NCBI GenBank assembly: GCA_017616735.1
Contig: JAFZXP010000076.1
Coordinates: forward strand, 1 to 41,992
DNA from: Bacteroidales bacterium
Lineage (GTDB): Bacteria > Bacteroidota > Bacteroidia > Bacteroidales > F082
Direction: 5' to 3'
Length of the DNA stretch: 41,992 nt
Under the pieces are notes generated by a model that saw nothing but the letters and a program-made list of their open reading frames with translations, did not search any database and was not told the origin of the DNA. This document shows positions 11,080 through 26,440 of the stretch, piece after piece. A program made the translations under genes and the position numbers. The first letter of the stretch is position 1. Every line of letters begins with the position of its first letter.

Positions 11080-12075
11080 ATGAAAAAGATTAAGATACTT
11101 GCATTGATTCTGGCCATGGCGACAGCGTTTACCGCTTGCACAGCCAAAAAGTCTGACAACCGTAAAGACCGTTCGGTAGGCGGCACATCGGAAGTGCTGT
11201 TTGTCACTCAGAACGACGAGCAATGGAATGGCCGCATGGGCGAAGCTGTCCGTGAATTTTTCGAAACCGAGCAGTACGGTTTGCCACAGCCCGAAACGAA
11301 TTTCAAGGTGGCTCACATCAACATCAACGCGCTCAACGACATGTTCCAAAAGCACCGCAACCTTATCATAGCCGAGATAGTGCCCGACCTGCCCAATCCT
11401 GTAATCGAGTCGCAGAACGATTGGCAGTCAGCTCCGCAATACGCCATCCGCATCAAAGCAAAAGATGCCACAACCTGGATCAAAGTATTTGAAAATCAGA
11501 AAGATGATATAAAGAAACACTTTGACAGCAACGAACGCGCGCGTTTCATGGATTTCTTCCATCCTCAAGCCGATCCCAAAGCTATACAGGCTATGAAAAA
11601 CGTGTTCGGCTGCACCATGATAGTGCCTAACGGCTATTACGTGGCTGTCAACAAAGACCATTTCATGTGGCTCAGACGCGAAGAGGCAGATAAGAGTTTT
11701 GGCTTGATTATCTACGAGTTGCCTTACAGAAGCACCGACGATTTGAGCGATGCCCGACTCATAAAAGTGCGCGACTCAGTGACCAAAAAGTACATCCCGG
11801 GGCCAACCGACGGCAGCTACATGACTCTTGACAAAGACTTCATCAAGCCAGTGTTTGACACCATAGCCGATTTCCCAGCCGGCTTCGCCATTGAAACCCG
11901 CGGCCTCTGGAAGACCGAAGGCGAATTCATGGCCGGACCGTTTGTTTCGTATACCGTAGTGAATCCAGAAGCGACAAAACTCGTCACCGTGGAAGGCTTT
12001 GTTTACTACCCCAACAAGGCGAAACGCGATTTGCTGAGGCAACTCGAATCGATATTGTGGAGCTTAAAGTTTTAA
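11080..12075 (+). CDS. DUF4837 family lipoprotein
   Basis: 331 residues. The lipoprotein signal ends FTAC (Cys20). The mature start matches DUF4837 as I recall it: [13 protein letters not shown], then [11 protein letters not shown], then [15 protein letters not shown]. This family is widespread in Bacteroidota and has no assigned biochemical role. Residues after Cys (TAKKSDN) lack the acidic export signature, so it is likely anchored facing the periplasm. The 3' end overlaps the convergent lytic transglycosylase gene by 12 bp, with no room for a classical terminator between them. Confidence 0.88.
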
Positions 12076-13923
12076 CTTCTGCCCCACCTTCAAATCGTTG
12101 GATTTAAGATTGTTCAGTTTCTTGATATGATCAACCGACACTCCGTATTTCTTTGAAATCGACCAGAGCGAATCGCCCGATTTCACAGTATAGGTGGTGC
12201 CGCTTCCGGTTTTGGCCGGTGTGGCCGACTTTGACGAGGTGTTCAAGGTCTCTGGCGGATACACCTTCAATCTCTGTCCCACCTTGATTGTTGTCGACTT
12301 CAGATTATTCCATTTTTTCAAATCTGTAACGCTGCATTTGTATTTGGCGGCTATCTTGCCCAGGGTCTCGCCCGACTTAACCACGTGTGTGGTCTGGACA
12401 GTGGAACGCTCCACCGGAGCGGTGTTGCCGGCCTGTGCCATCGGAGCGCCCGAGTTGTAAACTATGAGCTTCTGACCTATGCTCAGATTGTCCGACTTAA
12501 GGTTGTTCCACGATCTCAGCTGCTTGACGCTGACGTGATATTTCTTGGCGATTAAACTCAGGTTATCACCTTTTTTCACAATATGCACGCTTCTGTCCGA
12601 CATCTGCTTGATGCGCTCCTGCAGTTTTTCCTTGTCGATACCGCTCTTGGTCTTGAAGGTATAAAGCTCTTTCTCGTGGTCGATATAGTCGTTGACATAC
12701 TTCTCGGGCAACTGGAGCACCAAAGGCTTTTTGTCGGTTGCCGGAATGATTTGAGCTTTATATTGAGGATTGAAAAACTGTATGTCTTTCATCGGAACGC
12801 CCAGCATTTCGTTGATTTGGTCGAAATGCAGCACATCGTGCACCATCACGGTGTCTATGCCGTTTTTGATGATACCCGGATCAACCGGACAGATGTTGTG
12901 CTCGGCAGGATAATTCATCACGTAGTTGACTGCTATGAAAGCCGGCACATAACCACGTGTCTCGCGCGGCAGATAAGGCCAGATGGCCCAATAGTTCTTG
13001 ATGCCGCCTGCCCTGCGGATTGCTTTTTTCACATTGCCGGCGCCGCTGTTATATGCAGCCAAAGCCAGGAACCAGTCGCCGAACTGGTTGTACAGGTCGC
13101 GCAGATGCTGACATGCCGCCTCGGTCGATTTCAACGGGTCGTAACGGTCGTCAACCAAAGTAGTGACGTTGAGGTGGTACATCTTGCCAGTGCCGTACAT
13201 AAACTGCCACAAGCCCTTGGCGCCAGCCCACGAGCCTGCGGTCGGGTTCAAGGCCGACTCTACCACAGCCAGATATTTCAACTCAAGAGGCATGTTGTAT
13301 TTGTCGAGAGTTTGCTCAAACAAAGGGAAATATACATCGGCCAATCCCAGGATTCGCTCGGTTTTGTCGCGCTTGCTGACGGCATACACATCGATAAACG
13401 ACTTCACGTGTTTGTTGTAAACCAACTCCATGGTGGTGTTGCGGTTCAATTCCTCGATACGTTGCACGTAGACGCTGTCGGGGAACGACGGGATATAACC
13501 CGGAGGATAGTTGCAGGTGTTGACAAGACTGCCGTCAAAATACGGAATCACCTGCAGAGTGTCAATCATTTCCAACATGTCGGCCGACTCGTCGACTATG
13601 CCTTTTCCTGAATTCTCATCATCGAAAAGCTCCTGTATTTTCAGCTGAATGCTGTCGGGAAGCTCGGGGTTGATGGTATCCAAATCATAATCATATTCCG
13701 CAAAGACATCTTCGTCGTTCGAAAGGCTTTCATCAACATTTTGACTTTCTTCAACCGCTTGATTTTCAGCAGCCTCTTGCTGGTCGGCTCCAGCCTTTTG
13801 TTTTTCAACATTCTGAGCCTGTTTGGCCTTTACCTCACGAAACTCCTTAAATTCATTGATGGTTGCGCACGACACCATGACAACCGACAGTATCAATGCA
13901 ATGATAAACAACTGCTTTTTCAT
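12064..13923 (-). CDS. Membrane-bound lytic transglycosylase (MltD-like) with three LysM domains
   Basis: 619 residues. The signal peptide ends MVSC (Cys19), so it is a lipoprotein. Residues ~30-110 are an acidic low-complexity linker. The SLT domain covers ~190-350: E222 in [10 protein letters not shown] is the catalytic glutamate, followed by GAKGLWQFM and [12 protein letters not shown]. Three LysM peptidoglycan-binding repeats close the protein (about 440-485, 505-550, 573-619), each with the [HY][VIT]VK.G..L form. The enzyme cleaves the glycan strands of peptidoglycan, leaving 1,6-anhydro-MurNAc ends. Expected in the outer membrane, facing the periplasm. It has its own -7 box. Confidence 0.93.
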
Positions 13924-14023: not shown

Positions 14024-16006
14024 ATGAAAAAAGTCTTACTAACATTAGTTGCCATTGCCTTGTGCATAAGCGTGAAGGTCAATGCCCAGGATCAGACCAA
14101 GCCCGATTGGAAGAGATGGCATTACCTTTCTGAAGAAGAAATGAACACCCCTGTCAGAAACGAGAATTTTGTCGAGACCGATCCTCCGACAGGCACACCT
14201 CGTTTTGTGGCTGAGTTTGAGCCTATGCAGGGCGTGATGATTCGTTACCCTCTCGGAATTCCTACAAGTTTGGTAGTTCAGTTGTCCAACAACTGCCATG
14301 TTTACTGCATTGTTTCATCATCGTATCAGAGCAGTGCACAGAGCTCTTTCCAGAGCGCCGGAGTCAACATGAGCAACGTGACTTGGGTGAATGCGGCATC
14401 CGACTCATATTGGGTTCGCGACTACGGTCCGTGGTACATCTTCGAGGACAGAAACCCTGCTATCGTTGATAACGTTTATAATCGTCCGCGTCCTAACGAC
14501 GACAATATGTCGGGCGTTTTCGCCAACTTCTGGCAGATTCCGATGTACGGCATGAACCTCCAGCACACTGGCGGTAACATGATGGAAGACGGTCGTGGCC
14601 ATGGTGTCAGCGACGAGCTTGTGTTTCAGGAAAACAACTACAACGAAGCCAACGTGCGTCAAAAGATGCGCGACTATCTCGGCATCGACCCTTACCATGT
14701 AACCATCGACCCACAGGGCGATTACATCGCACACGTCGACTGCTGGGGCAAATATCTTGCACCTGACAAGATTTTGATTGCACAATTGCCTTCAAGCAAC
14801 TCGCAATATGCTTTGTATGAACAAGTTGCTGAGTATTTCGCGACAACAAACTGCTGCTGGGGCTATCCTTATCATGTATACCGCGTGCAGGAACCAGGTG
14901 GAAGCACACTTGCTCCTTACACCAACTCGTTGATTCTCAACAAGACAGTGTACGTTCCGCTCGGCTCACAGTCGTCATACAACGAAGCCGCTTTGCAGGT
15001 TTATCAGGAAGCAATGCCTGGTTACACAATCGTTGGCGTTACAAACAACGACTGGAGCATAGGTTGGGAGAACACCGACGCATTGCACTGCCGCACACGT
15101 GGCGTGATGGACTTCGGCATGCTCTTTGTCGACCACAGAGATGTCATCTTCGGCGAGCAGCAGTGGCAGGATTCAATTGCAATCACAAGCAAGTTCATCG
15201 CTTACAGCGGCGAGAACCTGAAACAGGATTCACTCCTTGTTTATTATAGCATCGACGGCGGCGCATATCAGGTTGCACACATGACAGCAACAGGCGAGCC
15301 TGATGAATATGTCGGCTACATCAAAGGTTATCAGGGTGAATCGAGCATCGATTACTATGTTTTCGGCGCTGACGAGTCGGGTCGACGTTACACACAGCCG
15401 GTGTTTGCCGAGTTGGATCCTCACCATTTCACAATGGAAGCACACACACCTGTAACTCCAACCGAGCCTTCTATCAGCGTTGAAGAACTCGTGTTTGACG
15501 AATCAGGCGAGTTAACATTCACAATCACCAACGAAACTGCCGCCCCATTTACCATCAACGATATAAGCGAAGAAATCGATGGTTTGAATTATCTGTGGTT
15601 TGAAACAAGCCAGGATCTTCCTGCAACATTGGCGGTTGGTGAAAGCTTGGTAGTTACCGTTGGCATTGCATTGGTTGCTAAAGGATATGTTGAAACACAT
15701 ATAGTAGTCATCTCCGACCTTGGTTCACAATATATTACTGTAAAGATCAACGAGGAAATCATTAACGGTGTTGGTGAGAACCTTGCAGCAAGCTTCGAGG
15801 TTTATCCTAACCCGATGAACAACACCTTATATATTAACGGTGAGGTTCAGGATGTGACAATCTTCAACGCAGTCGGCCAGCAAGTAATGTTTGTGGTGAG
15901 CGCTAACGAAATCAACGTTGCAGATTTGAATGAAGGATTGTACTTTGTGAGAATCAGCGACAAGAAGGGTAACAGCGTGGTGAAGAAGATTGTGAAGAGT
16001 CTTTAG
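14024..16006 (+). CDS. Secreted peptidylarginine deiminase (PPAD-like) with T9SS sorting domain
   Basis: 660 residues. The signal peptide ends VNA|Q22. The catalytic domain (about 40-370) closely follows P. gingivalis PPAD: DSYWVRDYGPW (D133), YNRPRPNDD (R154, R156), TGGNMMEDG, HVDCWGKYLAP (H237, D239), YTNSLILN (N301) and DALHCRT (C356). These correspond to PPAD D130, R152/R154, H236/D238, N297 and C351. PPAD converts peptidyl-arginine, preferably C-terminal, to citrulline plus ammonia, and the two arginines bind the substrate carboxylate. An Ig-like segment (~370-585) and a T9SS sorting tail (VYPNPMNNTLYI ... LNEGLYFVRI ... VVKKIVKSL) follow. It is about 100 residues longer than PPAD. The stop codon falls inside a heptad repeat. 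Expected on the cell surface or in vesicles. Confidence 0.93.
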   Translation: MKKVLLTLVAIALCISVKVNAQDQTKPDWKRWHYLSEEEMNTPVRNENFVETDPPTGTPRFVAEFEPMQGVMIRYPLGIPTSLVVQLSNNCHVYCIVSSSYQSSAQSSFQSAGVNMSNVTWVNAASDSYWVRDYGPWYIFEDRNPAIVDNVYNRPRPNDDNMSGVFANFWQIPMYGMNLQHTGGNMMEDGRGHGVSDELVFQENNYNEANVRQKMRDYLGIDPYHVTIDPQGDYIAHVDCWGKYLAPDKILIAQLPSSNSQYALYEQVAEYFATTNCCWGYPYHVYRVQEPGGSTLAPYTNSLILNKTVYVPLGSQSSYNEAALQVYQEAMPGYTIVGVTNNDWSIGWENTDALHCRTRGVMDFGMLFVDHRDVIFGEQQWQDSIAITSKFIAYSGENLKQDSLLVYYSIDGGAYQVAHMTATGEPDEYVGYIKGYQGESSIDYYVFGADESGRRYTQPVFAELDPHHFTMEAHTPVTPTEPSISVEELVFDESGELTFTITNETAAPFTINDISEEIDGLNYLWFETSQDLPATLAVGESLVVTVGIALVAKGYVETHIVVISDLGSQYITVKINEEIINGVGENLAASFEVYPNPMNNTLYINGEVQDVTIFNAVGQQVMFVVSANEINVADLNEGLYFVRISDKKGNSVVKKIVKSL

Positions 16007-21924: not shown

Positions 21925-23060
21925 CACTTGACTCTAAGCAGTTTTGACATCTTGCAACTGTCGTCCATGAAGACGATTGAAGCATTGGCGTTGCGCTCAA
22001 TCTGATTGATGCTTTCTTCGAACAGCTCACAAATCTCGGCCATGTTTTTGCGGTTGACAAATGGCGCGAAGTTCTGCGTAAAAGTCTTCTCGTCAGTCGG
22101 AAGCATCACTTCGTCCGACATATTATTGTTGAACAGCAACGAGTTGTGGAATATGTTGAGGCCGTATTCCAAAAACTCTTTCTGCCGCTCGCGTCCGAGA
22201 GGTTTGATATCGTTGGCCACAAAGTCGATAAGCTCGGGCAGGGCTCCCTTGAAGCAGTAACGCATCCATTTCTGGAATGTGTTGGCGTAGAGCTTCTCGT
22301 CTTCTTTATCGTTGGCGAAACGCTGCGCCAACAGCCAATTGCCGTCGGCCAGCATTGCGGCGTCGTGTGCCTCCTGAGGGTCGCAGCCAAGATTATCGAC
22401 TAGGGCGTCTTGAACTTCCTGATATGTCAGTTTAGGCACTTTCACCATCATGCATCGCGAGCGTATGGTGTTCAGCAGCTCCTCCTGATTCTCGGCTATG
22501 AGTATGAACAGGGTTTTCTCGGGCGGTTCCTCTATGAGTTTGAGCAGTTTATTGGCAGTCTGCACATTAAGCTTCTCAGCCATCCAGATAACAGCCACCT
22601 TATACTCGCCTTCATAAGCCTTGAAACTGAGCTTGCGCATGATAGTGGCGGCATCACGCACGTTGATGACACCCTGTTTGTTCTCTATATCTAGTTTTGT
22701 AAACCAATCCGACAAATCGGCGTAACCTTTGCAATCGGTCAGATATTCCCTCCAATCGGCGATAAACAGGTCTGATTCAGGATTCTTGTCGACTTTTTTG
22801 GTGGTGGCAGTCGGAAAAACGAAGTGCAAGTCGGGATGAGTCAGTGTCATGAACTTGCGGCACGACGGGCACTGGCCGCAGCTGTCGGTTTCGGAGCGGT
22901 TGGTGCAGTTGATATACTGGGCATAGGCCAAGGCCAAAGCCATCTTGCCGCTACCCTCCGGCCCGATAAAAAGCTGAGCATGCGACACACGACTGTCCCT
23001 AACGCTTTGTATCAAGCGTTTCTTCAAATCGTCATGTCCTATAACATCAGCGAAAAGCAT
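21924..23060 (-). CDS. holB: DNA polymerase III, delta' subunit
   Basis: 378 residues, a clamp-loader AAA+ protein. The nucleotide-binding loop reads IGPEGSGKMALALAYA (residues ~33-48). The zinc module is CTNRSETDSCGQCPSCRKF, and the sensor-like region reads LLKLIEEPPEKTLFILIA followed by TIRSRC. It helps load the beta clamp on DNA. Its ATG shares one base with the gingipain-like gene's stop (TAATG), so the two are probably translated from one message. Its own stop overlaps the lnt start (TGATG). Confidence 0.93.
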   Translation of the reverse strand: MLFADVIGHDDLKKRLIQSVRDSRVSHAQLFIGPEGSGKMALALAYAQYINCTNRSETDSCGQCPSCRKFMTLTHPDLHFVFPTATTKKVDKNPESDLFIADWREYLTDCKGYADLSDWFTKLDIENKQGVINVRDAATIMRKLSFKAYEGEYKVAVIWMAEKLNVQTANKLLKLIEEPPEKTLFILIAENQEELLNTIRSRCMMVKVPKLTYQEVQDALVDNLGCDPQEAHDAAMLADGNWLLAQRFANDKEDEKLYANTFQKWMRYCFKGALPELIDFVANDIKPLGRERQKEFLEYGLNIFHNSLLFNNNMSDEVMLPTDEKTFTQNFAPFVNRKNMAEICELFEESINQIERNANASIVFMDDSCKMSKLLRVK

Positions 23061-26000
23061 TATTTTTTAATGACTTTGGTCGAGTTAATATTACCCTTGC
23101 TGTCAATTGTCCTTACGAAATACATTCCTGCGGCCAAACCGGTCAAATCAACCGACTGCGAGTTGTTCACATCATTTGCGATAACTCTCATGCCCAATGA
23201 ATTATAAACCTCGACACTTTTCACATCATCGGCTTTGATGAAGATTACATCGGCGGTTGGATTAGGATAGACAGCCATTTCGCTGAATATCACTTCCTCG
23301 GTGTCGTCCAAAACTATAGTGTTGCCAGGGAATGTGATATCGTCAATCCAGCACACGTTGCCGTCGGTGGCACCGCTGGAGGATGTATCGTAACGCCATT
23401 CAAGCACATGGGTGCCGGCTTCGATGGTATATGTGGCAAGTGTCCAATCGTTATCGCCGGTCCAGAAGCCCAACACGGTATTGTCCATGTACAGGATCAA
23501 ATAGTCTTTCTTGTATTTTGTCAAAGTTTTATAGTAGAACGACAATTCACCGTCAGTTGTGGTGTTGATTTCGACTATGAGAGATGTCATCTGATTCTTG
23601 CCTATTTCGCCACACTGAGCGCTAAACGAGCCGCTGTACGCCTGATCGGAAGTTACAAACCACTCAGCATCACCCCACAAAACCCACGGCAATTTCGACA
23701 AATCGCCTGTTTCAAAATCTTCGGTTATCAAACCTACACACAGCACTATATCGCTTGTTGCCGAATACTCTCCCGCCATAACGTTGAAACTGAAGACGAT
23801 GGTGGTGCCTTGCGGAGTGTTTTCGTCAATTGTCACCTGAAGTTCTGCTTCAAAATCACCGCCGGCGGCCACATCGTTGAGCGGCAAATCGTTGGTGTTG
23901 AACTGAGCAGCCTGATTGTCGGCACTTCCGTGTATGTAAGGATTTGAGGCAATCAGATGTCCCACGTTCTTGCCTGTTATGGTGAACAGGAATGTCTCGC
24001 CAGGTTCCAGATAACCATTCATGTTGCCTTCAATTTCGGCATATTCAATATTATTGATTTTCAATGATGGAGCCTTTGCCTTGAAGAAAAGATTGCGGTT
24101 CCAGACGCTATTGCCGTCGGTGCAAGCCATCACGAAATCAACCAATGTGCCGTCGGGGATGTTGGCTGCCACGTCAAAATCGAAGGCGTCTTCAACCAGC
24201 ACCGAGCTTCCCGCATTAATTGTGCCAACCTCCACTGTCGATTTTGACAAGCTGACATATTGCGACACTGTCGACAAAGAAGCTGTCACACCAGCTGCAT
24301 CGGCTGTACCTGCGTTTTTGAAATTGACATCCATATCCAGACTGTTGCCTGTAGCGAAATCATCGTTCAGCTCAATATCCTGAGGATAGACAAAAGCGGT
24401 GTTGTCACTAAGTCCGATTATGTCGATTGTCTGAGGAATTGCGTTAGGGCCTGTGATTATAAGCTGCATTGTGTCGGCCACGTCGAGCGGGCTGCCGAAC
24501 TCCACATTGGCCATGCCATTTTCGTCGGTCATTCCGAAAGCCAAAAGTTGGCCGTTGTGGAAAATACTGCAACGGAAGTTGCTTTGGGCCACGCCGTCTT
24601 TTCTAACCTCAACAGTTGTGGCTGCAGATCCGAGATTGATGGCCGACTCGTAGCTCAGCTCCGGACGGAACGGCTCGTCAAGCCACGGGCACACCGCCAC
24701 GTCGCCAAGGATGTTGATGTCGTAGAGATTCCAGCGCATCGCGCCATCATCGCCCCAAGGTGTCGCAACATAAGGAGCTGTCATTATCTTCATCTCCACA
24801 AAAGCTGTGCCTATGTAAGGCAAGCGATCGTTGTAGTAAGCGTCGACAAACTCACGGTTGAGGTGTGCCGCCATGCCGTCGCCCCAAGGCTGATACCAAC
24901 CGTAACGCGAATTACCCGTGGTGGCCACAAATCCTGTGGAAATATTGACCAGACGCTCAAGCATACAGGTGTGGGTAAAGTCACCGCAGATGCATCCGTG
25001 CGAGTTGAAGAAACCGTAGTTGTGCGTCACGCCGTTGAGTTGAGCGAACGAGGCGTCGTTGGTGCTGTTTACATACCATCCGGCCACATAGTCGGTGTTG
25101 GCGTGACCGCAATGGAACACGTACTGCCCGCCGTGTTCGTTGATGGCGTTTCGGAATATAGCTCCCGACCAACCTGTCGGACCGTTTTCGTAGATTTTCA
25201 CAAACTCGTAATCCTCAGGAATTCCTACGGTTGTGTATCCAAAATCACTGTTAACTCCAATAAGTCTTTCAATGTCAGAACTGCCGTAGTATCCGTCACC
25301 CATATGCTCGGCTCCGAGAATAACTGTATTGAACTCGCCCAGCACCGGATTTGACTGATACTCGAGAGTTTTGTGCATCATGTTGTTGAACTGAGTCTCG
25401 TTGTTGAAAGGCATACGGCCTACACCTACCTCTGGCATCAGGTCATCCTCGCCTACCTCGCCCCACAACCCGTTGTTGTCTTCGTCCCAGTTGGTGTCGA
25501 AGCAGCCGAAATACATATCGGCCGGCAGGTTGTCGATATATTCGTCCGAGACGTAGCAGTAGAGTGCACGCCACGGCACCAGTCCGGCATCGCCGCCCAA
25601 AAGTATCATCATAATGCCGTTGTCTTCGTATTCCTGTTTGGTGTAGTTGAACACCTTCTCGGCATCGTCACGGCCTTCGAAGCTATTGAGGATGTCTTCC
25701 AATGCTGTAACATGAGTGCGCAAGCCGCGAGCCTGGTAGAAAGCCACATATTCGTCGAAATGCGAGACCCACTCCTGCGGTGTGATGACCAGCAGCTCAT
25801 AGCCGCCAATTGAGCGGCCGCGGGTTTTGTATTCAGCCACAGCCTCAGGGTTCTGCGCCATGCGCTCCACACGGGCTTGTACCTCAGGAGTCATCCACAG
25901 CAGACGGCTCTTATCGGCTCTCGATGCCTTGACGTCGACGGTAACTGTAACCGTCTTGGCATACGACACCTTGCCACTGGCAGGAACGTAACGAACTGGG

Positions 26001-26440
26001 GTAAACTGTGCAAACGCGAAAGAGCATCCGTTCATAAACTGAGTGCTGACTTTTGAGTAGGTTTTCTCGGGATAAACCGCTTCAGAACCGTAAAATTCTT
26101 CGTTTCTCTCAAGCACCAAAGGCTCTGTCGACGACAACGGACGGGCCTGTTGGTATGGCAGCAGGTTAAAAGTGCCCTCAAGTTCCACGAAGTCGGAATA
26201 TTCCACTGCTATTTCATTAGCCTCAGTGTTGGGAGGCAAAAGCAGCGAAACATGCTGACCCGGCAAAGTGGCTTTACCAACTTCACCAAGGCCGATTGTA
26301 CCGTCAAAGCTGATGACGTCATAGCCACCGACCACGCTAACAGCCGGATTGTCAAAATGATATGTTTTTTGTACCGTCTGGGCGATTGAAAGAGCGCCCA
26401 AAACAGCCACAAAAACAGTTGTTAAGATAAGTTTTTTCAT
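23060..26440 (-). CDS. Gingipain-like C25 cysteine protease with T9SS sorting domain
   Basis: 1126 residues. Signal peptide (LGALSIAQ) and a propeptide (to about 210). The C25 catalytic domain covers ~215-600: ELLVITPQEWVSHFDEYVAF, MMILLGGDAGLVPWR, EVGVGRMPF, FHCGHANTDY (catalytic His446) and NSHGCICGDF (catalytic Cys483). The His-Cys spacing of 37 is close to the 33 of RgpB. Ig-like/adhesin modules (~600-920), a lectin-like jelly-roll segment (LSFYYKTLTKYKKDYL, CWIDDITF) and a T9SS tail (VYPNPTADVIFIKADD ... MYFVRTIDSKGN) follow. Surface or secreted endopeptidase. Arg versus Lys specificity cannot be read directly. It sits 14 bp after lysS and overlaps holB. Confidence 0.92.
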   Translation of the reverse strand: MKKLILTTVFVAVLGALSIAQTVQKTYHFDNPAVSVVGGYDVISFDGTIGLGEVGKATLPGQHVSLLLPPNTEANEIAVEYSDFVELEGTFNLLPYQQARPLSSTEPLVLERNEEFYGSEAVYPEKTYSKVSTQFMNGCSFAFAQFTPVRYVPASGKVSYAKTVTVTVDVKASRADKSRLLWMTPEVQARVERMAQNPEAVAEYKTRGRSIGGYELLVITPQEWVSHFDEYVAFYQARGLRTHVTALEDILNSFEGRDDAEKVFNYTKQEYEDNGIMMILLGGDAGLVPWRALYCYVSDEYIDNLPADMYFGCFDTNWDEDNNGLWGEVGEDDLMPEVGVGRMPFNNETQFNNMMHKTLEYQSNPVLGEFNTVILGAEHMGDGYYGSSDIERLIGVNSDFGYTTVGIPEDYEFVKIYENGPTGWSGAIFRNAINEHGGQYVFHCGHANTDYVAGWYVNSTNDASFAQLNGVTHNYGFFNSHGCICGDFTHTCMLERLVNISTGFVATTGNSRYGWYQPWGDGMAAHLNREFVDAYYNDRLPYIGTAFVEMKIMTAPYVATPWGDDGAMRWNLYDINILGDVAVCPWLDEPFRPELSYESAINLGSAATTVEVRKDGVAQSNFRCSIFHNGQLLAFGMTDENGMANVEFGSPLDVADTMQLIITGPNAIPQTIDIIGLSDNTAFVYPQDIELNDDFATGNSLDMDVNFKNAGTADAAGVTASLSTVSQYVSLSKSTVEVGTINAGSSVLVEDAFDFDVAANIPDGTLVDFVMACTDGNSVWNRNLFFKAKAPSLKINNIEYAEIEGNMNGYLEPGETFLFTITGKNVGHLIASNPYIHGSADNQAAQFNTNDLPLNDVAAGGDFEAELQVTIDENTPQGTTIVFSFNVMAGEYSATSDIVLCVGLITEDFETGDLSKLPWVLWGDAEWFVTSDQAYSGSFSAQCGEIGKNQMTSLIVEINTTTDGELSFYYKTLTKYKKDYLILYMDNTVLGFWTGDNDWTLATYTIEAGTHVLEWRYDTSSSGATDGNVCWIDDITFPGNTIVLDDTEEVIFSEMAVYPNPTADVIFIKADDVKSVEVYNSLGMRVIANDVNNSQSVDLTGLAAGMYFVRTIDSKGNINSTKVIKK

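Follow-up and report, generated by a model that had tools for sequence, protein, structure and literature searches.

The window analysed here, a stretch of 41,992 nucleotides from the genome of an uncultured Bacteroidales bacterium whose close relatives live in ruminant and horse guts, contains a complete orthologue of the Porphyromonas gingivalis peptidylarginine deiminase (PPAD). Its product is likely a T9SS-secreted, cysteine-dependent peptidylarginine deiminase that acts on C-terminal arginine after cleavage by R-gingipain-like proteases. The same genome encodes gingipain-like genes, and PPAD genes are linked to genes for C25 (gingipain-family) peptidases in part of the relatives. This repeated pairing of PPAD with R-gingipain-like genes is the part of our results most worth following.

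A complete PPAD orthologue with an intact active site

The open reading frame (ORF) at 14024..16006 of the forward strand starts with ATG, encodes 660 amino acids and contains no internal stops. In phmmer searches, the best solved relative of its product was P. gingivalis PPAD (PDB 4yt9; E 3.2e-106, residues 49-475), with 180 identities over 418 aligned residues (43%) and 147 over the 310 residues of the catalytic domain. The Pfam family PAD_porph (PF04371) scored 86 bits against a cut-off of 25, and dN/dS over the core, between the window gene and seven relatives, was 0.06-0.12, indicating purifying selection. Because of this constraint and the E-value of 3e-106, chance likeness to PPAD is excluded, and ORF, phmmer, Pfam and tree evidence together confirm a real PPAD orthologue.

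The protein starts with a probable Sec signal peptide, recognised by eye (residues 1-21, 14024..14086, ending in ...VNA, with Q following). The catalytic, guanidino-modifying enzyme domain was located by alignment and Pfam at about residues 49-362 (14168..15109, the end being approximate), and is directly followed by an Ig-like domain corresponding to the one in PPAD, at about residues 363-475 (15110..15448), which has predicted strands; the alignment with 4yt9 spans both domains and reaches residue 475. A type A T9SS sorting domain occupies residues 593-657 (15800..15994), where the Por_Secre_tail profile scored 48 bits against a cut-off of 27. All these features are on the forward strand.

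In the alignment, all five catalytic residues of PPAD, D130, H236, D238, N297 and C351, were present one by one as D133 (14420..14422), H237 and D239 (14732..14740), N301 (14924..14926) and the catalytic C356 (15089..15091). Likewise, the three carboxylate-binding residues R152, R154 and Y233 correspond to the pair R154 and R156 (14483..14491; role in PMC4893104) and to Y234, whereas W127 and I234 of PPAD align with W130 and I235; the roles of the active-site and carboxylate-binding residues are described in PMC4893104 and PMC4487231. An earlier note on this DNA had read from it a close PPAD homologue with the five catalytic residues in PPAD order, the arginine pair in the motif YNRPRPNDD and a T9SS tail. 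Each of these points held, since the motif is common to both proteins, the tail exceeds its profile cut-off and, besides the phmmer match, the protein shares a clade with P. gingivalis PPAD (see below). The predicted structure, built from 23 sequences, was of moderate quality (pLDDT 77.6, pTM 0.60), with pLDDT below 50 at residues 351-353 and 356-358, hence at C356.

Gingipain-family peptidases in the same genome

The draft source genome (2.08 Mb, 78 contigs, completeness 80.5%) contains nine C25 peptidase genes, one of them in the window, as well as the T9SS translocon gene sprA/sov (SprA model, 2527 bits). The earlier note was silent on the window C25 peptidase and on the gingipain-like genes that the genome encodes outside the window. 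The window gene (23060..26440, reverse strand) encodes a secreted-type peptidase with Propeptide_C25, Peptidase_C25 and T9SS tail profiles.

Two of the nine genes resemble gingipain R, L157 (E 2.3e-66, versus 5.6e-16 for Lys-gingipain) and L160 (5e-66 versus 2.7e-11), and one, L158, resembles Lys-gingipain (8e-100, versus 1e-25 for gingipain R). These three genes form a tandem array on contig C71 (L204), and each encodes Propeptide_C25, Peptidase_C25, C25_C and Por_Secre_tail domains. The RgpB residues D163, H211, C244, Q282 and W284, whose catalytic or S1 roles are given in PMC9559808 and PMC4357240, are all conserved in L157 and L160. Among 58 R-type loci, comprising the best-scoring ones plus L157 and L160, all five residues were present in 56, and the Asp, His and Cys in all 58. 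Conversely, Asp163 was found in none of the five other C25 domains of this genome that aligned (one Thr, two Glu, two gapped or uncovered). The remaining two, including that of the window, did not align in this residue check; MAFFT placed Asp, His and Cys of the window peptidase in the RgpB columns, with no pairwise hit to L157.

Linkage of PPAD and C25 genes

The C25 gene closest to the window PPAD is separated from it by 7 kb with housekeeping genes in between, and the R-type genes belong to a different contig. An operon of PPAD and the window C25 gene is unsupported, given this gap. In loci L102 and L105, a window-type C25 gene lies past lysyl-tRNA synthetase from PPAD, so the proximity of both genes may be old, a point to which we attach no weight. 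The window PPAD gene is located beside genes for a LysM lytic transglycosylase (12064..13923, reverse strand) and a DUF4837 protein (11080..12075, forward strand), a site with no close C25 neighbour. Each of these two genes adjoins PPAD in 22 of the 80 named loci (best 80 of 581 confirmed stretches), some of them cut short, and this context is probably the ancestral PPAD site.

Outside the genus, we examined 80 PPAD neighbourhoods from 75 genomes and 33 families, covering 74 of 103 PPAD-positive genomes of the same order and one genome of another order; they were picked mostly by score and before the protease search. C25 genes were counted with a catalytic-domain HMM, which missed a 5'-cut upstream C25 gene in L107 that is visible by Pfam in L207, and gaps were measured between stop-to-stop frames. 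A C25 gene occurred within approximately 2.7 kb of PPAD in 14 of the 80 neighbourhoods, belonging to eight of the 33 families, and within 400 bp in nine; 13 of the 14 linked genes had the same orientation as PPAD. The other 66 neighbourhoods showed no C25 gene in the fetched flank, which in some cases ended at a contig edge. By chance, 0.9 cases would be expected within 2.7 kb versus the 14 observed, and 0.13 within 400 bp versus nine, although this estimate uses the C25 density of five genomes, 33 genes over 15.7 Mb, and ignores relatedness, the safer figure being eight of 33 families. Ten of the 14 linked genes were R-type, with D163, H211 and C244 (W284 in seven of the ten), as compared with a background of 7 of 33 (p 8e-5, relatedness ignored).

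Among the named loci (best 80 of 581), seven had a C25 gene near PPAD: three with the R type (L071, L104 and L107), two with an L158-like gene alone (L103 and L115) and two with the window type (L102 and L105). PPAD of L104 is flanked by an L158-like (Lys-gingipain-like) and an L157-like (R-type) gene (L104:2-5689 and L104:7834-12510), both carrying the Cleaved_Adhesin domain, which is named for gingipains and hemagglutinins (PMC10394638). L207, the same place as L107, contains on one strand a C25 gene, an M14 zinc carboxypeptidase gene (L207:3670-6444), PPAD and another C25 gene, adjacent genes overlapping by 4 bases at the closest and lying 124 bases apart at the widest; the M14 enzyme could compete for, or prepare, C-terminal arginines. 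Two L076 genes labelled as C25 by full-length BLAST turned out to be S8 subtilases, and the first L071 ORF, likewise mislabelled, was just the dockerin-bearing end of a gene.

Co-occurrence of PPAD and R-type proteases

We compared the distribution of both genes in 392 genomes of the same order, excluding our own, from lists compiled by hand. Genomes were considered PPAD-positive at E ≤1e-130 and R-type at E ≤1e-40, both thresholds being chosen after viewing the tables. An R-type match was present in 99 of 107 PPAD-positive versus 59 of 285 PPAD-negative genomes, and in 99 of 107 versus 58 of 263 when only SprA-positive genomes were counted; by family, the figures were 44 of 46 versus 21 of 74. 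There were thus 59 genomes with the R type and no PPAD, and eight with PPAD and no detected R type. The p-values of these comparisons are too small because the genomes are related.

As a control, another C25 type, similar to L161, was searched in 222 of the 392 genomes and found in 46 of 70 PPAD-positive versus 5 of 152 PPAD-negative genomes. Where the L161-like type was absent, the R type occurred in 24 of 24 PPAD-positive versus 32 of 147 PPAD-negative genomes; where it was present, in 43 of 46 versus 4 of 5, with no detectable addition. The R type is thus not alone in co-occurring with PPAD, and because of this mixed control we regard PPAD as part of a C25-rich way of life, in which the R type is its most constant companion. 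Among the titles and abstract openings listed from open-licence papers, in lists that were partly capped, there was no account of PPAD occurring next to gingipain-like genes in organisms other than Porphyromonas.

These distributions also bear on a different function, that of a scavenger mainly of free arginine and short peptides, in which an extracellular arginine deiminase would make ammonia independently of gingipain-like proteases. PPAD is described as able to deiminate free L-arginine (PMC12599369, PMC4893104), and the gene lies mostly away from C25 genes, as in the 66 of 80 neighbourhoods above, some of them cut by contig ends. However, the R-type match in 99 of the 107 PPAD-positive genomes and the close neighbourhood of PPAD and R-type genes in several families argue against such independence, making this function improbable.

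Proposed function

In the function that we favour, deimination following cleavage, R-gingipain-like C25 proteases would cut after arginine at the cell surface, generating new C-terminal arginines. D133 and D239 would hold the guanidinium of the substrate, and deimination of C-terminal arginine is expected because R154, R156 and Y234 would hold its free carboxylate. C356, aided by H237 and N301, would then attack the guanidinium, so that ammonia leaves and citrulline remains, following the deimination chemistry derived from PPAD structures (PMC4893104, PMC4487231). Free arginine would probably be deiminated too. The likely benefit would be nitrogen and alkali drawn from protein of dietary, host or microbial origin, the simplest case being that ammonia supplies one or the other; in P. 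gingivalis, ammonia protects in acid according to PMC4487231. It is in this sense that we infer secretion, activity, substrate and benefit for the window protein, whereas the pairing of both enzymes has genome data behind it. The link to rheumatoid arthritis mentioned in the earlier note cannot be derived from these data.

Conservation in the genus and distribution in the phylum

A long PPAD match was found in 31 of the 36 genomes of the genus, our own included. Among the exceptions, G003 has the gene split over two frames, G007 has a short fragment beside a contig edge, and the match in G001, G014 and G028 (58-89% complete) is confined to the tail. The G003 gene (L039, G003:C3) is a same-genus PPAD in two overlapping frames, for which assembly error and decay are indistinguishable. 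That the window gene itself should be a decayed or inactive copy is very unlikely: one relative is split, but nothing of the kind is seen in the window gene, whose open frame, complete active site and dN/dS of 0.06-0.12 speak against decay. In its lineage it is a normal, conserved gene, and it adds a sound member to a family already known.

In the order, 107 of the 392 other genomes contained a strong match (E ≤1e-130), and 46 of 120 families were PPAD-positive, including our own. From 394 other genomes drawn from the phylum, 27 matched at 1e-30 and four, all from one family, at 1e-130. Named relatives (best 80 of 581) belonged to uncultured Bacteroidota titled Bacteroidales, Bacteroidia, Muribaculaceae, Prevotellaceae, Porphyromonadaceae or Prevotella, with one identified as Candidatus Limimorpha caballi; where titled, their sources were yak, goat, water buffalo, dairy cattle, sheep, red or roe deer, and horse.

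The reference of the earlier note to another lineage is right, but it understated the breadth of the family, and the single finding is less surprising than supposed because the family is wide. Nor is presence beyond Porphyromonas new in itself, because Cummings et al. 2021 (PMC8826395) already state that pPAD is "more widespread than previously thought". Elsewhere PPAD is called unique, namely in the PMC4487231 abstract (2015), in the opening of that of PMC9010743 (2022) and in a heading of PMC9559808 (2022), and the excerpted text of PMC12599369 (2025) names relatives in other Porphyromonas only.

PPAD and agmatine-deiminase-like proteins form separate clades

The earlier note had proposed a tree of PPAD and agmatine deiminases as a check. 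A quick tree was built with 108 rows, omitting 38 of 146 rows (37 odd-numbered order loci, for thinning, and one duplicate). It included two spurious rows, the second ORFs of L279 and L281 (24 and 27 bits, branch length 8), which were removed together with the long row L028 and ten others for a careful tree of 95 rows. In the latter, the window protein and P. gingivalis PPAD grouped with 63 more rows in one clade (100/100), apart from a clade of 13 agmatine-deiminase-like rows (100/100), and the remaining 17 rows, which represent other orders and classes in the phylum, fell outside both. P. gingivalis PPAD was nested inside its clade in an unstable position, beside the f82 genus in the quick tree (85) and beside L228 in the careful one (95/95).

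Both carboxylate-binding arginines were present in all 20 rows of the close group, which includes the window protein, in P. gingivalis PPAD and in 83 of 83 other rows of the PPAD clade, 75 of which kept all ten active-site residues; the clade's exceptions were its four tandem-variant rows (see below), all without R152. Conversely, both arginines were lacking from the 13 agmatine-deiminase-like rows, which make up the 15-row group of our residue table together with the two spurious rows, and the 12 that were compared were 18-23% identical to the window protein. The NCBIfam agmatine deiminase models scored 39.5 and 44 bits on the window protein against cut-offs of 381.8 and 483, the first of which is strict, being passed by none of 60 genomes of the order, our own included. 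Profile scores, residues and tree thus rule out an agmatine deiminase. Even in the wider form of an agmatine deiminase or other small-molecule guanidine hydrolase that acquired an export tail, and despite the shared Pfam family PF04371 and the derivation of PPAD from agmatine deiminases proposed by Goulas et al. (PMC4487231), this identity is scarcely credible in view of the 100/100 separation, the missing arginine pair and the low identity.

Within the PPAD family, five loci contain a second copy just downstream of the normal one (L033:2880-4157, L034:2914-4191, L046:8281-9921, L050:6471-8117 and L064:5012-6652). In these tandem copies W127 is replaced by Phe, I234 is changed and the Michaelis loop is shorter, and R152 is lost (Glu in MAFFT, Glu or Pro in BLAST alignments). 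The four copies in the tree, all but L034, formed one clade (100/100), and their substrate has possibly changed. As for the Michaelis loop, the commonest form was DPNNTYIDH, in 23 of 146 aligned rows, all within the 108 rows of the PPAD clade, and the form of 4yt9 was found in 4yt9 alone; the published loop of the P. gingivalis variant structure 6i0x matches the naturally common form. Distant PAD_porph relatives (L028:862-1893 and L169-L190), mostly from other classes of the phylum, had R152 and R154 in 20 of 23 cases and Y233 in none, with L028 having Glu at R152.

A variable segment precedes the tail

Beyond the part that aligns with PPAD, predicted strands, profiles and alignment delimit an extra beta-rich segment at approximately residues 480-576 (15461..15751, forward strand). 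Eight strands were predicted here, with block pLDDT of 68-90, which would fit an Ig-like sandwich, but no profile exceeded its cut-off (DUF1573, 16.4 of 26.1 bits; choice-of-anchor D, 21.1 of 45). The extra segment of about 100 residues described in the earlier note is present, and its Ig-like nature is a possibility. We measured the stretch following the core in 83 PPAD ORFs of the 80 named loci (best 80 of 581), and found 27 stretches of 85 aa or less, 25 of 170-200 aa and another 25 of 280-300 aa; among the remaining six, one had 497 aa, four ran off the contig and one was partial. The segment is accessory and variable among close relatives.

Short-tailed PPAD ORFs from the same best 80 of 581 loci carried a Pfam dockerin type I domain in 22 of 28 cases and a T9SS tail in five. 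The dockerin-tailed loci, their type assigned from reading the tail, are L071, L076, L082-L084, L086-L092, L094-L100, L108, L110 and L116, and dockerins also occur on genes adjoining PPAD in L071, L076 and L087. Tail type, labelled by a simple pattern rather than by Pfam, switches at least three times on the core tree. A dockerin-tailed PPAD was likewise absent from the titles and abstract openings listed from open-licence papers, in partly capped lists.

Evolution of PPAD

Goulas et al. (PMC4487231) propose that PPAD arose when a bacterial agmatine deiminase was transferred horizontally and two domains became fused. In our tree, P. gingivalis PPAD is instead nested in a large Bacteroidales family, and the tree does not require such transfer and fusion inside Porphyromonas. 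We see roughly even chances that PPAD, rather than having been invented in Porphyromonas, is part of an old extracellular module that is widespread in Bacteroidales and cuts proteins after arginine before deiminating the end so formed. Its two components, R-gingipain and PPAD, would have been inherited or moved together, sometimes in one gene array, the P. gingivalis virulence pair being one member. Side branches would have led to dockerin tails and to tandem copies with a remade carboxylate site (R152 lost), possibly the sign of a changed substrate.

Should Bacteroidales of gut and rumen produce PPAD along with R-gingipain-like proteases, the origin of PPAD would become testable with data. 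The basic role of PPAD would then more likely be nutritional or pH-related than disease-related, and hunts for microbial sources of citrullinated peptides could extend past the mouth.

Comparison with known systems

The window protein shares with PPAD (PDB 4yt9, 5ak7) the catalytic pentad, the Tyr and the arginine pair that bind the carboxylate, the Ig-like domain and the T9SS tail, that of PPAD being known from the literature, and both are encoded in genomes with gingipain-like genes. They differ in sequence (43% identity), in the extra Ig-like segment of about 100 residues in the window protein, in the Michaelis loop (DPQGDYIAH versus DPNGEYINH in PPAD) and in the host, a gut Bacteroidales lineage with relatives including Candidatus Limimorpha versus an oral species. 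With the bacterial agmatine deiminase AguA it has in common PF04371 and the catalytic His, Asn and Cys, whereas AguA lacks the carboxylate arginines, the Ig domain and the export tail, and belongs to a separate clade. Among the proteases, L157 and L160 share with gingipain R (RgpB, PDB 1cvr) the catalytic His and Cys, the S1 residues D163, Q282 and W284, the propeptide, the C25_C domain and the T9SS tail, differing in the linker regions. L158 has the layout of Lys-gingipain (PDB 4tkx, 4rbm) and matches it over the domain with an E-value of 8e-100.
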